This document shows, one piece after another, positions 13,026-20,104 of a stretch of DNA of 64,000 nucleotides. Position numbers and translations under genes: made by a program. Positions within the stretch are counted from its first letter, which is position 1; each line of letters opens with the position of its first letter. This stretch comes from Chthoniobacterales bacterium. GTDB lineage: Bacteria; Verrucomicrobiota; Verrucomicrobiia; Chthoniobacterales; DYNR01. The stretch spans positions 59,306-123,305 of the forward strand of contig JAOAAX010000004.1 in NCBI GenBank assembly GCA_026418675.1. Direction: 5' to 3'. A model generated the notes under the pieces. It saw nothing but the letters and a program-made list of their open reading frames with translations, did no database searches and was not told the DNA's origin.

Positions 13026-13565
13026 ATGTCACGTTTAGGAAAACGCCCAATTCCAATACCTGACAAGGTTAAGGTAACTTCTTCCGCGGAGGGACATGTG
13101 ACTGTCGAGGGGCCAAAAGGCAAACTTGAGTGGGATTTGCCGCCCGGGATCTCTCTTGCGTTAGAGAAAGACTCTGTATGTGTTACTCGGTCTAATGATT
13201 CTCGCCAATCAAAAGCATTTCACGGGCTTTCACGCGCTCTCCTTGCAAATATGATTGTTGGCGTTTCTAACGGGTATCGGAAAGAGTTGGAGATTCATGG
13301 AGTGGGCTTCCGTGCTGCGGTCCAGGGTAAAACGCTCAATTTGAGTCTCGGGAAATCCCATCCCATTCTCTACCCAATCCCCGAAAATGTTAAGATTTCT
13401 ATAGCCGAAAACACAAAAATCACGGTTGAAGGGATAGATAAACAAGTTGTTGGTCAGGTAGCAGCGAATATTCGGAATTTCTATCCACCTGAGCCATATA
13501 AAGGCAAGGGTATTCGCTACGTAGGGGAGCAAATCCGCCGTAAATCTGGCAAAACTGTCCAATAA
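13026..13565 (+). CDS. rplF: 50S ribosomal protein L6
   Basis: MSRLGKRPIPIPDKVKV...PPEPYKGKGIRYVGEQIRRKSGKT. Confidence 0.98.
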   Translation: MSRLGKRPIPIPDKVKVTSSAEGHVTVEGPKGKLEWDLPPGISLALEKDSVCVTRSNDSRQSKAFHGLSRALLANMIVGVSNGYRKELEIHGVGFRAAVQGKTLNLSLGKSHPILYPIPENVKISIAENTKITVEGIDKQVVGQVAANIRNFYPPEPYKGKGIRYVGEQIRRKSGKTVQ

Positions 13566-13568
13566 GCC

Positions 13569-13928
13569 ATGAGCACACGAATTGAAAAAATCCAAATTCG
13601 CCATCGTCGTATCCGCAAGAAAGTTCAAGGCACAGCTGAGCGGCCTCGCTTAAGTGTCCATTTTTCCGGACGCAATATCTCTGTCCAAGTTATCGATGAC
13701 CTTGCAGGTCATACACTTGCTGCGGCTAGCACCCTAGAGCCTGAGTTCCGTTCGTTTCCTAAACGGGGAGCAAATATTCCAACGGCAGAGCGGATCGGTA
13801 AGATAATAGCGGACCGCTCCCTCGCAAAAAATATCCGCAAGGTCGTCTTTGACCGTGGCGGCTTTCTCTATCATGGTAAAGTAAAAGCTTTGGCAGATGC
13901 AGCCCGAGCTGCTGGCCTGGAATTTTAA
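13569..13928 (+). CDS. rplR: 50S ribosomal protein L18
   Basis: [34 protein letters not shown]...[28 protein letters not shown]. Confidence 0.98.
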
Positions 13929-13945
13929 AATTATTTCGAAAGATT

Positions 13946-14569
13946 ATGAGCAATCCTATCGAACGAATCGCTGCTCGGAACAATCGCACAACATCGCGAG
14001 AGCGCAACCGCGAAAATCCACAGGTTCCAAATCAGGTAGTTACAACGGAATCTCCCCAATTTCATGACAAAGTGGTCTATATCAATCGCTGTGCGAAGGT
14101 TGTAAAAGGAGGACGCCGTTTCAGCTTTTCTGCTCTCATAGTTTCAGGAGACCAAAAAGGTCGAGTTGGAATAGGTTTTGGGAAGGCGAATGAAGTAAGC
14201 GATGCAATTCGTAAAGCCACTGACGCAGCACATAAGAGAATGGTTGAAATCAAGATTGCAAACAATACCATCCCGCATGAGGTGATTGGAAACTTTGGTG
14301 GTGGTTGTGTTTTGCTTAAGCCTGCAAGCCCTGGAACAGGTGTTATTGCTGGGGGCGGTGTTCGTGCTGTTGTCGAAGCCGCAGGTATTCGGGATGTCCT
14401 CGCGAAGTCCCTCGGTTCAAAAAATCCTGCAAATGTTGTCAAAGCGACCCTCGACGCATTGCTCAAACTTCGCCATCGTAACGAGATATTTCAAATTCGC
14501 GGTAAAAAGATTCGTTCCAAATCGCCAAATGAATCCTCCAACCCAGCCACAAATAAACAATCGGAGTAA
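13946..14569 (+). CDS. rpsE: 30S ribosomal protein S5 (N- and C-terminal extensions)
   Basis: [58 protein letters not shown]. Confidence 0.97.
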
Positions 14570-14619
14570 ACTTAACTTTGGAAGATTAATCCCTCAATTG
14601 ATAAAATTACTGCTAAGTT

Positions 14620-15132
14620 ATGTCAACAACTAAATCGCCGCTGCGCTTACATAATCTTAAACCACGTCCTGGAGCGAAGCATCGAACGAAACGTTTGGGG
14701 TGCGGAGAAAGCTCTGGTCATGGAAAAACATGTGGTCGCGGCCACAAGGGCCAAAAAGCGCGTTCTGGTGGGACAATTCGACCCTCCTTCGAGGGTGGTC
14801 AAATGCCGCTCTTCCGCCGTCTTCCCAAACGTGGTTTTAGCAACTATCGCTTTCAGAAGGAAATTGCGATTGTAAATTTGGACGACTTAGAGCGCTGTTT
14901 TGAAACCGGAGCTACCATCAACGAAGCTGCACTTCGTGAAGCAGGTTTGGTTCGGGGCCAATTTGATGCAATCAAACTCCTTGGACGCGGAAATGTAACC
15001 AAAAAATTTTCTGTTCATGTCCATTTTGCCTCCGGTTCTGCGAAACAAAAACTTGAACAAGCCGGAGGAGAACTAGTTTTAATACCCATACCCCCTCCTC
15101 CAGGGAAACGGAACCAGAAAAAAGAAGGTTAA
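14620..15132 (+). CDS. rplO: 50S ribosomal protein L15
   Basis: LHNLKPRPGAKHRTKRLGCGESSGHGKTCGRGHKGQKARSGG...GFEGGQMPLFRRLPKRGF-like core. Confidence 0.97.
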   Translation: MSTTKSPLRLHNLKPRPGAKHRTKRLGCGESSGHGKTCGRGHKGQKARSGGTIRPSFEGGQMPLFRRLPKRGFSNYRFQKEIAIVNLDDLERCFETGATINEAALREAGLVRGQFDAIKLLGRGNVTKKFSVHVHFASGSAKQKLEQAGGELVLIPIPPPPGKRNQKKEG

Positions 15133-15198
15133 CATTATTAAACTTTGTCTGATAAAATCCGATAATAATTAATATAAAAAAAATTTCCCTCCCGCTGT

Positions 15199-15238
15199 GC
15201 CCGCCTCGATACCCCTCGACGGCGGGCTAGTTTTTTTT
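15199..15238 (+). terminator. Rho-independent terminator after rplO
   Basis: gcccgcctcga...tcgacggcgggc stem followed by an 8-T run. Confidence 0.8.
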
Positions 15239-15330
15239 ACTCTAGTAATTTTGTGTATTTGACTTTTGTAAAAAATTCGTGGCATTTGACATTTATTTCG
15301 ATGGGAGGGGAAACGGAGGTGGGGGAGCAA

Positions 15331-15353
15331 GTAAGTCAATTCGTAAGTAATTC
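15331..15353. repeat. Imperfect tandem repeat GTAAGTCAATTC/GTAAGTAATTC flanked by inverted GGGAGC/GCTCCC
   Basis: Read directly: gggagcaa gtaagtcaattc gtaagtaattc gctccc (flanking hexamers 15323-15328 and 15354-15359). Confidence 0.6.
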
Positions 15354-15367
15354 GCTCCCGACAAGAG

Positions 15368-15443
15368 ATTTCTGAACAAAGGTGAGATCATTTATTGCAT
15401 GGGAAGGTTTTATCCGGATTGGATGTTGAAGTTGTTCAGAAAT
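15368..15443. repeat. 12-bp perfect inverted repeat ATTTCTGAACAA...TTGTTCAGAAAT
   Basis: Arms 15368-15379 and 15432-15443, 52-nt spacer, in the intergenic region upstream of the kinase. Confidence 0.7.
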
Positions 15444-15486
15444 TGTTACGGAATTTTTGCTTGAATAACGGAGGGGTCAGTGCTTT

Positions 15487-16893
15487 TTGACGATTTGTAT
15501 GCAAGCGGAGAAAGATTTACGTTTGGCTCAACGCTATACGATCGAACGCAGTTTAGGATCTGGAGGGCTAGGAGAGGTATTTTTGGCCTACGATACTTGT
15601 CTCGACCGATGGGTAGCTCTAAAGAGATTACGAGCAGATTTGACAGGGACTGTTTCAGCTGCGGAGCAAATGATCCGCGAAGCACGAGCTTTGGCTGCTT
15701 TGCAACATGGAAACGTGGTAACGGTATATGATTGCTTCTTGGAGGATGACCAACCATGGCTTGTGATGGAGTTTGTTCCAGGACAGACGTTAGATAAAAT
15801 TTTGATGGAATCGCCTTTGAGTTATGATGATTTTTTAGATGTTGCTAAGCAGTGTTTGGAGGGGCTTGCTGCTGCTCACGCACGAGGACTCTTGCATCGG
15901 GATTTAAAACCTTCGAACATCATTGTAGCAAAGGATTCGCACGGGCGCAAAGTTGTCAAAATTCTTGATTTTGGGCTCGCGAAACTATGCCCGAGGCCAA
16001 TGGAACAAAGCACGGACCAGTCAGGGGCGCTTTTTGGTTCTATCCACACTATGGCACCGGAGCAATTTGAACAGCACGAATTAGACGCCCGCACAGACCT
16101 CTATGCGTTGGGGTGTGTGCTCTACGAGTGTCTAGCAGGTCGTCCGCCCTTTGATGGTCAGTCGCCGGCGGAGGTAATGGCAGCGCATTTGCAACACAAT
16201 TACCAGCCACTTGCTCAATTGAGACCCGATATACCCCAGCCAATTTGCACATGGGTGGAGCGTTTGTTTGCTCGCTTACCAAGTGAGCGTCCAGCAAATA
16301 GTCGGCAAGCTTTGGGAATTCTGCAGGCGATTATGCGAAGTTCCACTTCAGCAGTTTATCCGTCCAAGGGACAGAAAAACGGAATTGGGAAGAGTGTTTG
16401 GCACATTGGAGCAGTAGGTGTGGGTTTGCTGGTTATTGCAGCAATCGGATTGGGCTACGCTTTCCTTCAACGTCCAAATGTTGAAGGATCAAAAAAAAGC
16501 CAATTATTTGATCAGAAGGGAAGTAGCGAGGTGTTTTCAGGAAAAAGTGTCCCAAATGCTTCGGAAGTTGACTTGGAAACTTCAAAATTTATGCCTAACG
16601 AGACAAAGAGATTGCTGGAAATGGTCGGGAGACGTGTGGTGGTTGAAGGGAAAATCGTCAACATTGGCCAAAGTAGATCGGGAAATGTGCTTTACGCAAA
16701 CTTTGATGGTAACCAAAGAGGAGATTTGGCTTTGGTCCTCTTTACTACTGCCGAGGAGAAAGAAAAAGAATTAGAAAAATTGGGGAATCTTGTTGGGAAA
16801 ATAGTGCGTGTAGAGGGGATAGTGGAAACATTTCGAGGTGCACCGCAAATTCGTCTCTCTCCACCTACGAATCTGCGGGTTGTCTCAAATTAG
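15487..16893 (+). CDS. Membrane-anchored Ser/Thr protein kinase (PknB/Hanks type) with C-terminal OB-fold-like extracytoplasmic domain
   Basis: Gly loop GSGGLGEVF, HRDLKPSN, DFG; one TM (GAVGVGLLVIAAIGLGYAF); C-term RRVVVEGKIVNIGQSRSGNVLYANFDG...GKIVRVEGIVETFRGAPQIRLSPPTNLRV. Confidence 0.9.
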   Translation: MTICMQAEKDLRLAQRYTIERSLGSGGLGEVFLAYDTCLDRWVALKRLRADLTGTVSAAEQMIREARALAALQHGNVVTVYDCFLEDDQPWLVMEFVPGQTLDKILMESPLSYDDFLDVAKQCLEGLAAAHARGLLHRDLKPSNIIVAKDSHGRKVVKILDFGLAKLCPRPMEQSTDQSGALFGSIHTMAPEQFEQHELDARTDLYALGCVLYECLAGRPPFDGQSPAEVMAAHLQHNYQPLAQLRPDIPQPICTWVERLFARLPSERPANSRQALGILQAIMRSSTSAVYPSKGQKNGIGKSVWHIGAVGVGLLVIAAIGLGYAFLQRPNVEGSKKSQLFDQKGSSEVFSGKSVPNASEVDLETSKFMPNETKRLLEMVGRRVVVEGKIVNIGQSRSGNVLYANFDGNQRGDLALVLFTTAEEKEKELEKLGNLVGKIVRVEGIVETFRGAPQIRLSPPTNLRVVSN

Positions 16894-17088
16894 AGTTTGG
16901 CTTAAAGGTGATTTGTAATAATCCAAGGAGCTTGAGTCTCTTTTTATACTACCTTGGACAAAGTTCACCTAAAATTAATTCCGATTGTTCTGCTGAGACT
17001 CATTCAGTCTAATAAGAAAGAAGGTGTTGTTTCCTTTAGCTCGAAATCGAGGATTGACGGAGATTGGTTTTTAAGTATTCTTTTCGAC

Positions 17089-17667
17089 ATGGACGAATCG
17101 CTTAATTTCGAGAAAGTTTGGATGCTGATGCAGCAGACCTTCCTGGAGACTCGACAAATGTTCCAGGAAACGGACAAAAAATTCCAGGAGACCGGGAAGC
17201 AGATCCAGGAATTGAAGCAGACGGTGGAGGGTTTGTCGAAGCGATTTGGGGACTTAGGCAATCGGCTTGGGGAGTTTGTCGAGGAGATGGTTAAGCCGGC
17301 GTTAATAAAACTTTTTCAAGAACGGGGACTTGAAGTGCACGAAGTTTGTGAGCGGGTGCGAGCAAAGCGTAAGGGAGAAGGGGTTGAAGTGGACATGATT
17401 GTTATTAACGAAAAGGAAGCGGTTGCTGTTGAATGTAAAAGTCGTGTTACGGTGGAGGATGTGAAACAGCACATGGAAGGAATGGTAAAAGTGAGACGTC
17501 TGGTTTCCTTGGTTTCTGACCGGGTTTTGTATGGTGCTATTGCAGGGATGGTTGTTGATGAAGATGCACGCACGCTTGCAGATAATGAAGGATTATATGT
17601 TCTCATGCAGAGCGGTGACTTTGTTAAGATTGTCAACACTCCCAATTTTTCTCCAAGAAGTTTTTAG
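17089..17667 (+). CDS. DUF3782-like protein: coiled coil plus PD-(D/E)XK nuclease-like domain
   Basis: Heptad FxETxxx repeats then VEVDMIVINEKEAVAVECKSRVTVEDVKQHMEG (D...ExK motif). Start set to the internal ATG. Confidence 0.75.
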   Translation: MDESLNFEKVWMLMQQTFLETRQMFQETDKKFQETGKQIQELKQTVEGLSKRFGDLGNRLGEFVEEMVKPALIKLFQERGLEVHEVCERVRAKRKGEGVEVDMIVINEKEAVAVECKSRVTVEDVKQHMEGMVKVRRLVSLVSDRVLYGAIAGMVVDEDARTLADNEGLYVLMQSGDFVKIVNTPNFSPRSF

Positions 17668-17712: not shown

Positions 17713-18504
17713 TTAGAGATTAAGTGCATGGGAGTGGAGGCGAATGGCGGCTTCAAGTATCGCTGAAATTGCGGCTGTATGGGCAGAAATTTGGAGGTTT
17801 AAGCTGAATTTTGCAGAAGTTTCGAAGACGATTTCAAAAGGCTTAGGAAATTGGGATGGTGAGGCAGTAAGGATACCATTAAAACATTGTTCGATAATTG
17901 CGTTAGTTGCCTTCCAACCGTCAATCAAAGGGGATTGGGAACGGGGAATGAAAGCGGATGCGGATTGGAGGGCGGGCTCGAGAAGGTGACGGGTAAGAAG
18001 GTCGCCGCCGACGTAACCGTAAATCCCGTCTGCTGTATCGTCGGAGTGGAGTGCGAGTATTCCGTCGAAATGGTAGCTTTTAAGTTCGTTTTCCAGGGAA
18101 CGAACCTCTGGTTGCTGTGAATTTGTCCAGAAGATACGGTTCAAGTCGAGACCGTTTGGGAGGGTGCGTTGGGAAAGAGAGAGTCCGGCGGGATTGCAGA
18201 TGGGATAGATGAGGAGTCTGCAATTTTGAGCGAGGGTTGGGTTGAAAATTAATTTTTGTATAAAATCTAAACAAGCGTAGGGACCCGCTGGCTCGTCACC
18301 ATGAATTCCAGCGAAGATACCAATTGTGAGCCAGGGGTCTTGATGAGGTGTAAAGGTGAATTTATGGAGGGGGAACTGTTGAGCTTGGTAGTAGAAGGTT
18401 GTTAGTTGATAGTAAGTTAAGTGAGGGTGAGAAGAAATGGAAACAATAAGTTCTTGGATTTGAGTTTCGAGGATCTTGTAGTGCGAAGATGGGGAAAGTT
18501 GCAA
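17713..18504 (-). CDS. M14-family zinc carboxypeptidase / succinylglutamate desuccinylase-aspartoacylase-like protein
   Basis: GIFAGIHGDEPAGPYA (HxxE), NGLDLNR, LALHSDDTADG, FEIVFET. Confidence 0.8.
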   Translation of the reverse strand: MQLSPSSHYKILETQIQELIVSISSHPHLTYYQLTTFYYQAQQFPLHKFTFTPHQDPWLTIGIFAGIHGDEPAGPYACLDFIQKLIFNPTLAQNCRLLIYPICNPAGLSLSQRTLPNGLDLNRIFWTNSQQPEVRSLENELKSYHFDGILALHSDDTADGIYGYVGGDLLTRHLLEPALQSASAFIPRSQSPLIDGWKATNAIIEQCFNGILTASPSQFPKPFEIVFETSAKFSLNLQISAHTAAISAILEAAIRLHSHALNL

Positions 18505-18518
18505 AGGTAGGGGAGTAG

Positions 18519-19334
18519 CTACGAGGATTGTTGTTCGGCGATTTGGAAGTTTTCTCTGAAAGTATGGAGGAGAGAGAGGATAAGGCCAATACCTTCCTCG
18601 GCTTGTTGTTCTGCAAGCAGTTGGCCAGGGAGGAGGAGGAGGATTTCTGAAGGTTGAGCGGAAGTTTGAGGGATTGGGGTGAGGCGACCATCATTGGGAG
18701 TGTTGAAATCTTCGATTTTCCATTCGAAGCCGGGACTGGTAGTTTGGTATTTTTGGAGTGCGTTAAGAAGGATTCGGTGGTGGTTGGGAGATGCTGGCCA
18801 TACTAATGCGGAAAATTCTTCGGCCTTGGTATCTTCTTCGAGGCGGAAGACAATGTCGTAGGTATTGCGAAGAAGTTCTTTCTCGATGACTTGGATATGC
18901 CGGAGGAGAGAGTTGTGCCAAAGAGAGAGTTCATTTTGGCGTTGTTCAGGGGTTAGAACGACCATTGCTTCGCGGGCATCTAAATTTACGATTGGGTAAA
19001 CCGTTGCTTCGATGCCGTCCACGAGTTGAAATTTTTCTTCGAGTGCGGCAACCAAACGGAAAAGAGTATAGGAGGCGCTTTCTTCATTGCCAAACCAACC
19101 TGCGGTTAAGAGTGCGCGCATGGAACGAGTAGGGCCTGGCTTGCCAAGGACATGGTAGTAAGGGATAAGATCCTCCCCTCGATTCCATCCAGTGTGCGGA
19201 GCAGCATATCCAACGACCAAGTGTTCAGATTCTTCGCTGAGGTCGAGGAGAGGTTGCATGAGGTGGCGGTGGTCTGCGCGAGCTGATTGGAAGATGCGTC
19301 GGAGTTGTTCAGCAGCAAGAGAAGCGTCGCTCAT
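18519..19334 (-). CDS. Divergent M14-like protein lacking the Zn-ligand His positions (paralogue of the downstream gene)
   Basis: LTAGWFGNEESASYTLF aligns with IFAGIHGDEPAGPYACL; YPIVNLDAR with YPICNPAGL; YDIVFRLEEDTKAEEFSALV with FDGILALHSDDTADGIYGYV. Confidence 0.6.
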   Translation of the reverse strand: MSDASLAAEQLRRIFQSARADHRHLMQPLLDLSEESEHLVVGYAAPHTGWNRGEDLIPYYHVLGKPGPTRSMRALLTAGWFGNEESASYTLFRLVAALEEKFQLVDGIEATVYPIVNLDAREAMVVLTPEQRQNELSLWHNSLLRHIQVIEKELLRNTYDIVFRLEEDTKAEEFSALVWPASPNHHRILLNALQKYQTTSPGFEWKIEDFNTPNDGRLTPIPQTSAQPSEILLLLPGQLLAEQQAEEGIGLILSLLHTFRENFQIAEQQSS

Positions 19335-19339
19335 GGGTG

Positions 19340-19969
19340 CTAGAGAAGATTGCTGGGAAGTTCGTTGTCTTGAAAAGCAGAGTTTGAATTTTGTGCAGTT
19401 TTGGAGTTTTGAGAGGATAAAGAGGAGTGTTTTTTGGGATTGTTTGTGGGGCGGTTTGAGTTTGGAGTAAAATTGTCGGGAATAAGCTGATCGAGCGTAG
19501 CTTGGGAAAAGAAATTGCGTGAAAGATTAAGATATTTGCCGATTAAGTCGTGGACTTTTGCGATGGTATTCTGAAGTGATGAAAGAGAGGGCGGAGAGGG
19601 TGGAGATTCCGGCAAGGAAGAAGAGTTAGGAGAAAGGGAATCAATTTGATTCTCATTTATTGAATCACTATTTGATGAGTTTTCTTTTGAGGTTAAGGAG
19701 AAAGTGTTGGGTTCGAGGGCTTCAATAACTTCCGCGAGGTTAATTTGGTGAGGTGGCCTGGCCAACCAATATCCGCCTAATTTTCCACGTTTTGCTTGGA
19801 TAATGGAATTTTTACGTAAGCGGAAGAGGATTTGCTCGAGGAAGGGAATTGGGATTGGGTCGTGGGAAGTGATTTGATGGATGGAGATAGGGGGTTCGAC
19901 TTTTCCGTGATAAGCAGCGAGGATTGCTAATGCCCGGATTCCGTATTCTGTTGATTTTGTGAGTTTCAT
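19340..19969 (-). CDS. Rrf2-family transcriptional regulator (no Cys residues)
   Basis: MKLTKSTEYGIRALAILAAYHG...FLEQILFRLRKNSIIQAKRGKLGGYWLARPPHQINLAEVIEALE. Confidence 0.88.
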   Translation of the reverse strand: MKLTKSTEYGIRALAILAAYHGKVEPPISIHQITSHDPIPIPFLEQILFRLRKNSIIQAKRGKLGGYWLARPPHQINLAEVIEALEPNTFSLTSKENSSNSDSINENQIDSLSPNSSSLPESPPSPPSLSSLQNTIAKVHDLIGKYLNLSRNFFSQATLDQLIPDNFTPNSNRPTNNPKKHSSLSSQNSKTAQNSNSAFQDNELPSNLL

Positions 19970-20104
19970 AGTGATAACTTTATAAGCTTAGGCTGGATGT
20001 GAAAAAAAAGCAAGTTTTTTCGTTAGCATTTTTGTTAAGAAAGAAAAAAGTTTTTTTATAATAATAAAAAGAGAGGATTTAGGGTTAATGAATCGAAATT
20101 GGAT

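Follow-up and report, generated by a model that had tools for sequence, protein, structure and literature searches.

A live M14-type hydrolase and its dead paralogue in a bacterial locus with a proposed link to the sulfate-assimilation operons of Verrucomicrobiota

Why would a bacterium keep, in one tight cluster, a zinc hydrolase of the M14 fold and a paralogue of it whose catalytic site is gone? The question is raised by a 64,000-nt stretch of a Chthoniobacterales genome (GenBank assembly GCA_026418675.1, contig JAOAAX010000004.1, positions 59,306 to 123,305; hereafter the window). An earlier note on this DNA had described three minus-strand genes packed with gaps of 5 and 14 nt, and we found the open reading frames at positions 17713-19969 arranged in that way, with 5 nt between the regulator and the dead paralogue (PSE) and 14 nt between PSE and the intact hydrolase (M14). 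The features are as follows.

17713..18504, minus strand: M14, intact AstE/AspA-type zinc hydrolase by profile match (PF24827, 43.7 bits, cut-off 25), 263 aa, tentative TTG start
18519..19334, minus strand: PSE, M14-fold protein of 271 aa with both zinc His, DLNR and the catalytic Glu replaced, assigned from residues, profile match and fold
19340..19969, minus strand: Rrf2-family regulator, 209 aa (PF02082, 81.9 bits, cut-off 30; alignment with 26 Rrf2s associated with cys operons)
19970..20098, minus strand: intergenic stretch upstream of rrf2, by its position a likely promoter/operator region

A divergent plus-strand gene starts at 20099. The start codons, that of M14 above all, are predicted, and rrf2, PSE and M14 are presumed to be co-transcribed; a promoter and terminator scan returned only promoter-like matches near shuffle level upstream of rrf2. 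Both PSE and the M14 of this subfamily are single-copy genes in the 2.34 Mb window genome, and in a genome with one copy of each their adjacency is unlikely to be due to chance. Outside the operon, a convergent plus-strand ORF at positions 16954-17667 of the window has a DUF3782 match and weak nuclease-like hits, and at 13026-16893 the ribosomal protein genes close with an L15-like gene followed by a Ser/Thr kinase-like ORF instead of the usual secY.

In the distal protein, all of the M14 signatures that had been reported earlier (HGDE, DLNR, LHSDD, and FET) are present, and the alignment places the HxxE and distal His zinc ligands, the NR pair, and the catalytic Glu where they are expected. 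The protein clears the cut-off of the Pfam AstE_AspA_cat profile; among named equivalogs it comes nearest to N-acetylornithine deacetylase, scoring 45 bits where 400 are required. It also falls below the equivalog cut-offs of AstE, aspartoacylase, and MpaA, with scores (given here without assignment to the individual families) of 28 vs 306, 20 vs 157, and 18 vs 180 bits. Its AlphaFold model (pLDDT 78.3, pTM 0.84) has the M14 fold, the top Foldseek match being the Shewanella metallopeptidase 2qvp (E 3e-11), with other M14 proteins next. As far as sequence can tell, M14 is thus an intact AstE/AspA-type hydrolase.

The middle protein had been described as alignable to the distal one with both zinc-binding His replaced, and the alignment bears this out. 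PSE can be aligned to M14 over nearly its full length, PSE-family sequences pick up M14 proteins by phmmer, and an hhalign comparison of the two profiles gives 99.4% probability (E 4.7e-21, 244 columns), a level at which the homology inferred from the sequences lies far beyond chance. Where M14 has HGDE, the PSE family has W-x-G-x-E, so that only the Glu is left from HxxE, and nothing remains of the second His, of DLNR, or of the catalytic Glu in FETP; every aligned relative of the window PSE shares its loss of the zinc ligands and the catalytic Glu. PSE reaches no family cut-off. Its AlphaFold model (pLDDT 84.8, pTM 0.88) has the M14 fold, again with 2qvp as the top Foldseek match (E 3e-10), followed by other M14 proteins, and with a Foldseek probability of 1.00 to M14 structures. 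Both models were built from thin alignments of 9 rows, in which PSE sequences and the window M14 stood together, and they are therefore only partly independent of each other. Taken together with hhalign, the fold check that the earlier note had proposed came out as it foresaw, with an M14 fold for both proteins and a metal site only in M14.

Among 213 genomes of the order, PSE was found in 10, spread over three families (E below 1e-15), and sampling 384 genomes from the class yielded no further copy; those of its relatives in GTDB genomes that have a name come from records of Spartobacteria, Chthoniobacterales, and Terrimicrobiaceae. Within one genus its dN/dS is 0.03-0.05, which indicates purifying selection; more distant pairs give 0.17-0.51 with dS near saturation. 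PSE belongs to a selectively maintained clade of dead paralogues. An M14 orthologue accompanies it in 9 of the 10 PSE genomes, compared with 54 of the 203 others (p 9e-5, kinship ignored). Direct adjacency of PSE and M14 is found in the window genome alone among the 213, the two being unlinked elsewhere, which rules out a conserved adjacent pair within the order; outside the window, no PSE neighbour is conserved beyond the genus.

Orthologues of M14 occur in 63 of the 213 genomes (E below 1e-30), and cysT is found in 49 of these 63 as compared with 12 of the 150 others (Fisher p 4e-24, kinship ignored), lying no more than 8 kb from M14 in 35 of the 49 genomes that have both; the other 14 M14 genomes have no cysT match. 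The typical order is rrf2-sbp-M14-cysT-cysW-cysA, or alternatively M14 stands beside cysK. NCBIfam matches or sequence comparison identified the neighbours as an Rrf2 regulator, sulfate-binding protein, CysT, CysW, CysA, serine acetyltransferase, cysteine synthase, and SulP permease. The window's family is represented by just one other genome (G001), in which cysK directly follows M14 (L035), and the same M14-bearing sulfate operon recurs in other families of the class. Genus g28 has a second M14 copy, in a SulP permease-cysK-sbp-M14 cluster away from the ABC transporter operon (L028 5254-9891, L029 5318-9951). Murein-peptide recycling of the MpaA type had been considered as the context of M14 and was dropped, the conserved neighbours being sulfate and cysteine genes.

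In the window genome neither PSE nor M14 lies beside any cys gene. M14 there stands apart from the sulfur operon, because sbp-cysT-cysW-cysA is found without M14 on contig C64 (L104) and cysK on C46. From the neighbourhoods of its orthologues we take M14 to be, by descent, a sulfur-assimilation gene, and we infer that it may still serve sulfur assimilation in the window organism.

The dead copy next to M14 in the window has counterparts elsewhere. In another family of the same class (f24), the sulfate operon contains, next to M14, a further M14-like gene that is dead, a common order being sbp-dead-[sbp2]-M14-cysT-cysW-cysA. The dead gene was found in 45 of 200 genomes of the family, with M14 on the same strand and within 2.5 kb in 33 of them. 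All 30 dead copies inspected have other residues in place of the two zinc His and the catalytic Glu and have lost the Asn from the NR pair, with the Arg kept in some; the M14s next to them keep every catalytic residue within the stretches covered. Ten of the 45 genomes, some of them incomplete assemblies, have no M14 orthologue above 100 bits, and in three of these ten the dead gene stands between sbp and cysT (L161, L177, L181). A further dead copy lies between M14 and sbp in a genome of family f46 (G195). Dead M14 paralogues are a recurring companion of the live enzyme in Verrucomicrobiota. The earlier note had held that its reading would fail if the pair were kept together in no relative; for this kind of pair the objection does not apply, because the analogous dead and live genes adjoin in 33 of 45 f24 genomes. 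The neighbourhood survey it called for thus has a divided outcome: a live/dead pair does recur, but the exact PSE-M14 adjacency is confined to the window genome, and the sulfate and cysteine context, which shows only in relatives, had been missed. Separately, a degenerate M14-like protein without zinc ligands is encoded in another family of the order (G091, L036 9461-10318), unlinked and not within a sulfate operon.

On the tree, single branches set off the M14s (support 77/49), the f24 dead clade (98/98), and PSE (100/100), and the f46 dead copy groups with the f24 dead clade (99/97). The best tree has all dead copies together on one side of the 77/49 branch, which fits a common origin for them but supports it weakly. 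Independent origins were not rejected: in AU tests, nesting PSE with the M14s of the order gave p 0.139 and placing the f24 dead clade with the f24 M14s gave p 0.145.

The regulator heading the operon differs from those of the relatives. It has, as noted before, no Cys and a long Ser/Pro/Asn-rich linker, and this insert stands where the cys-operon Rrf2s of the relatives have a Cys loop; its scores lie under the equivalog cut-offs of IscR (53 vs 208 bits) and CymR (51 vs 195 bits). By comparison, all 26 Rrf2s compared that lie with or near M14 in relatives have at least 3 Cys and the conserved loop, which in verrucomicrobial sulfate operons reads CxSxTAYxKCxCPDExHCGLR or CVSVTDYKRCSQExxCRFR (L034, L097, L137-L153, and other cys-operon loci). 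Judged by this motif, the Cys-loop proteins are likely Fe-S or thiol sensors of sulfur status. Orthology of the window Rrf2 to them is unsupported, as it falls outside their group in the alignment with the 26. Of the proteins compared, it comes closest (36.7%) to a second Rrf2 without Cys from its own genome, which is encoded on contig C56 (L121 1492-1899), downstream of a glycerol-3-phosphate dehydrogenase-like gene.

Having these observations, we propose, with about an even chance of being right, that the locus is a displaced piece of a Verrucomicrobiota sulfur-assimilation toolkit, composed of a cytosolic amide hydrolase and a ligand-binding or regulatory dead paralogue. The cytosolic substrate of M14 would be an amide, N-acyl or peptide-like, of some metabolite of the cysteine pathway, and its hydrolysis would give the amino acid back to the pathway. 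Candidate substrates are N-acetylcysteine and N-acetylserine, the dead-end isomer of O-acetylserine; that it is one of these two is a guess, and on balance an improbable one. Precedent for the former comes from the N-acetylcysteine deacetylases in cysteine salvage of Bacillus subtilis (PMC12757645). As for the latter, an O-to-N acyl shift turns O-acetylserine into N-acetylserine (PMC6277577), and since it is formed by acyl migration, an M14 acting on it would be a metabolite-repair enzyme. PSE, in turn, may bind either M14 or a ligand identical or similar to that of M14, and this binding could tune hydrolysis or sulfate uptake. The adjoining Rrf2, having no Cys, would regulate the operon by some means other than an Fe-S or thiol switch within the protein. 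The sulfate and cysteine neighbourhoods of the M14 orthologues, the dead paralogues beside M14 in f24 and f46, and the selection on PSE speak for this proposal. Against it count the distance of the window locus from any cys gene, the M14 genomes with no cysT match, the low equivalog scores, the place of the window Rrf2 outside the cys-operon group, and the lack of linkage between PSE and M14 in relatives.

Binding of PSE to M14 has a stricter form, in which PSE and the other dead paralogues would be structural or activating subunits of M14 in an obligate heteromer; a heteromeric module had been the suggestion of the earlier note. The dead gene beside M14 in the window and in most f24 dead-gene genomes, the enrichment of M14 in genomes having PSE, and the strong selection on PSE all speak for such a subunit. 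They have to be set against the ten f24 genomes (some incomplete assemblies) with a dead gene and no M14 orthologue above 100 bits, three of which have the sbp-dead-cysT arrangement, and against the absence of PSE from most M14 genomes of the order. That each gene occurs without the other makes an obligate complex less likely, and we hold the obligate heteromer to be improbable. The same three loci, where the dead gene sits between sbp and cysT without M14, lend themselves to another reading, that the dead paralogues primarily regulate the sulfate ABC transporter, or Sbp/CysT function, with the pairing with M14 as a by-product of the shared operon. The dead gene does adjoin sbp in most of the 30 loci inspected, but no transporter genes lie beside it in the window or in the other PSE genomes, and we consider a primary role of this kind rather doubtful.

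The link to sulfur could itself be incidental, M14 being a general N-acyl amino acid or peptide hydrolase with unrelated neighbours and an unrelated function of PSE. Such enzymes exist within the fold family, M14 weakly matches MpaA, AstE, and N-acetylornithine deacetylase, and PSE is unlinked in relatives. Given the strong and repeated sulfate and cysteine linkage across several families, however, we see little room for a general hydrolase of this kind. A bolder reading than the displaced toolkit is that sulfate assimilation in Verrucomicrobiota includes an undescribed step, in which a zinc amide hydrolase works with a dead paralogue dedicated to it; the latter would sense the substrate or product and set hydrolysis or sulfate uptake, and the two would form an enzyme-plus-pseudoenzyme repair or feedback module. 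We put this forward tentatively, as a possibility somewhat short of even.

In the textbooks, the route from sulfate import to cysteine looks complete. That several families keep a hydrolase within its operon, in many cases together with a dead version of the enzyme, signals a further step or form of control that the textbooks lack. The natural series of genomes with the live gene alone, live plus dead, and dead alone makes the role of a bacterial pseudoenzyme directly testable. A search of open-access PMC papers found none that describes either the live/dead pair or the M14 gene present in these operons; fold and operon are known, and their combination, with the recurring dead paralogue, appears to be undescribed.

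Among known systems, the AstE/AspA branch of the M14 fold (succinylglutamate desuccinylase, aspartoacylase; PF24827) is the nearest to the window M14, which likewise has HxxE...H, DLNR, and the catalytic Glu and shares the fold by Foldseek, the nearest solved structures being 2qvp, 3b2y, and 3ieh from Shewanella. The window M14 differs from that branch in lying far under every named equivalog, in having orthologues in cys operons, and in having beside it a PSE with a lost site. The Bacillus subtilis enzymes ScmP, YhaA, and YtnL are M20-type, a family other than M14. They are N-acetylcysteine deacetylases, metal-dependent deacylases in cysteine salvage, which is the role proposed here for M14 (PMC12757645). 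With CymR and IscR, the Cys-loop Rrf2 regulators of sulfur metabolism, the window regulator has the Rrf2 fold in common, and Cys-bearing Rrf2s head many M14-containing sulfate operons; the window protein, in contrast, has a linker instead of Cys and misses both cut-offs. The bacterial sulfate ABC transporter operon (sbp/cysP-cysT-cysW-cysA) has neither M14 nor a dead gene in its textbook form, and the window locus lies away from its own genome's copy, whereas the operons of the relatives contain M14 and, in f24, the dead paralogue as well.
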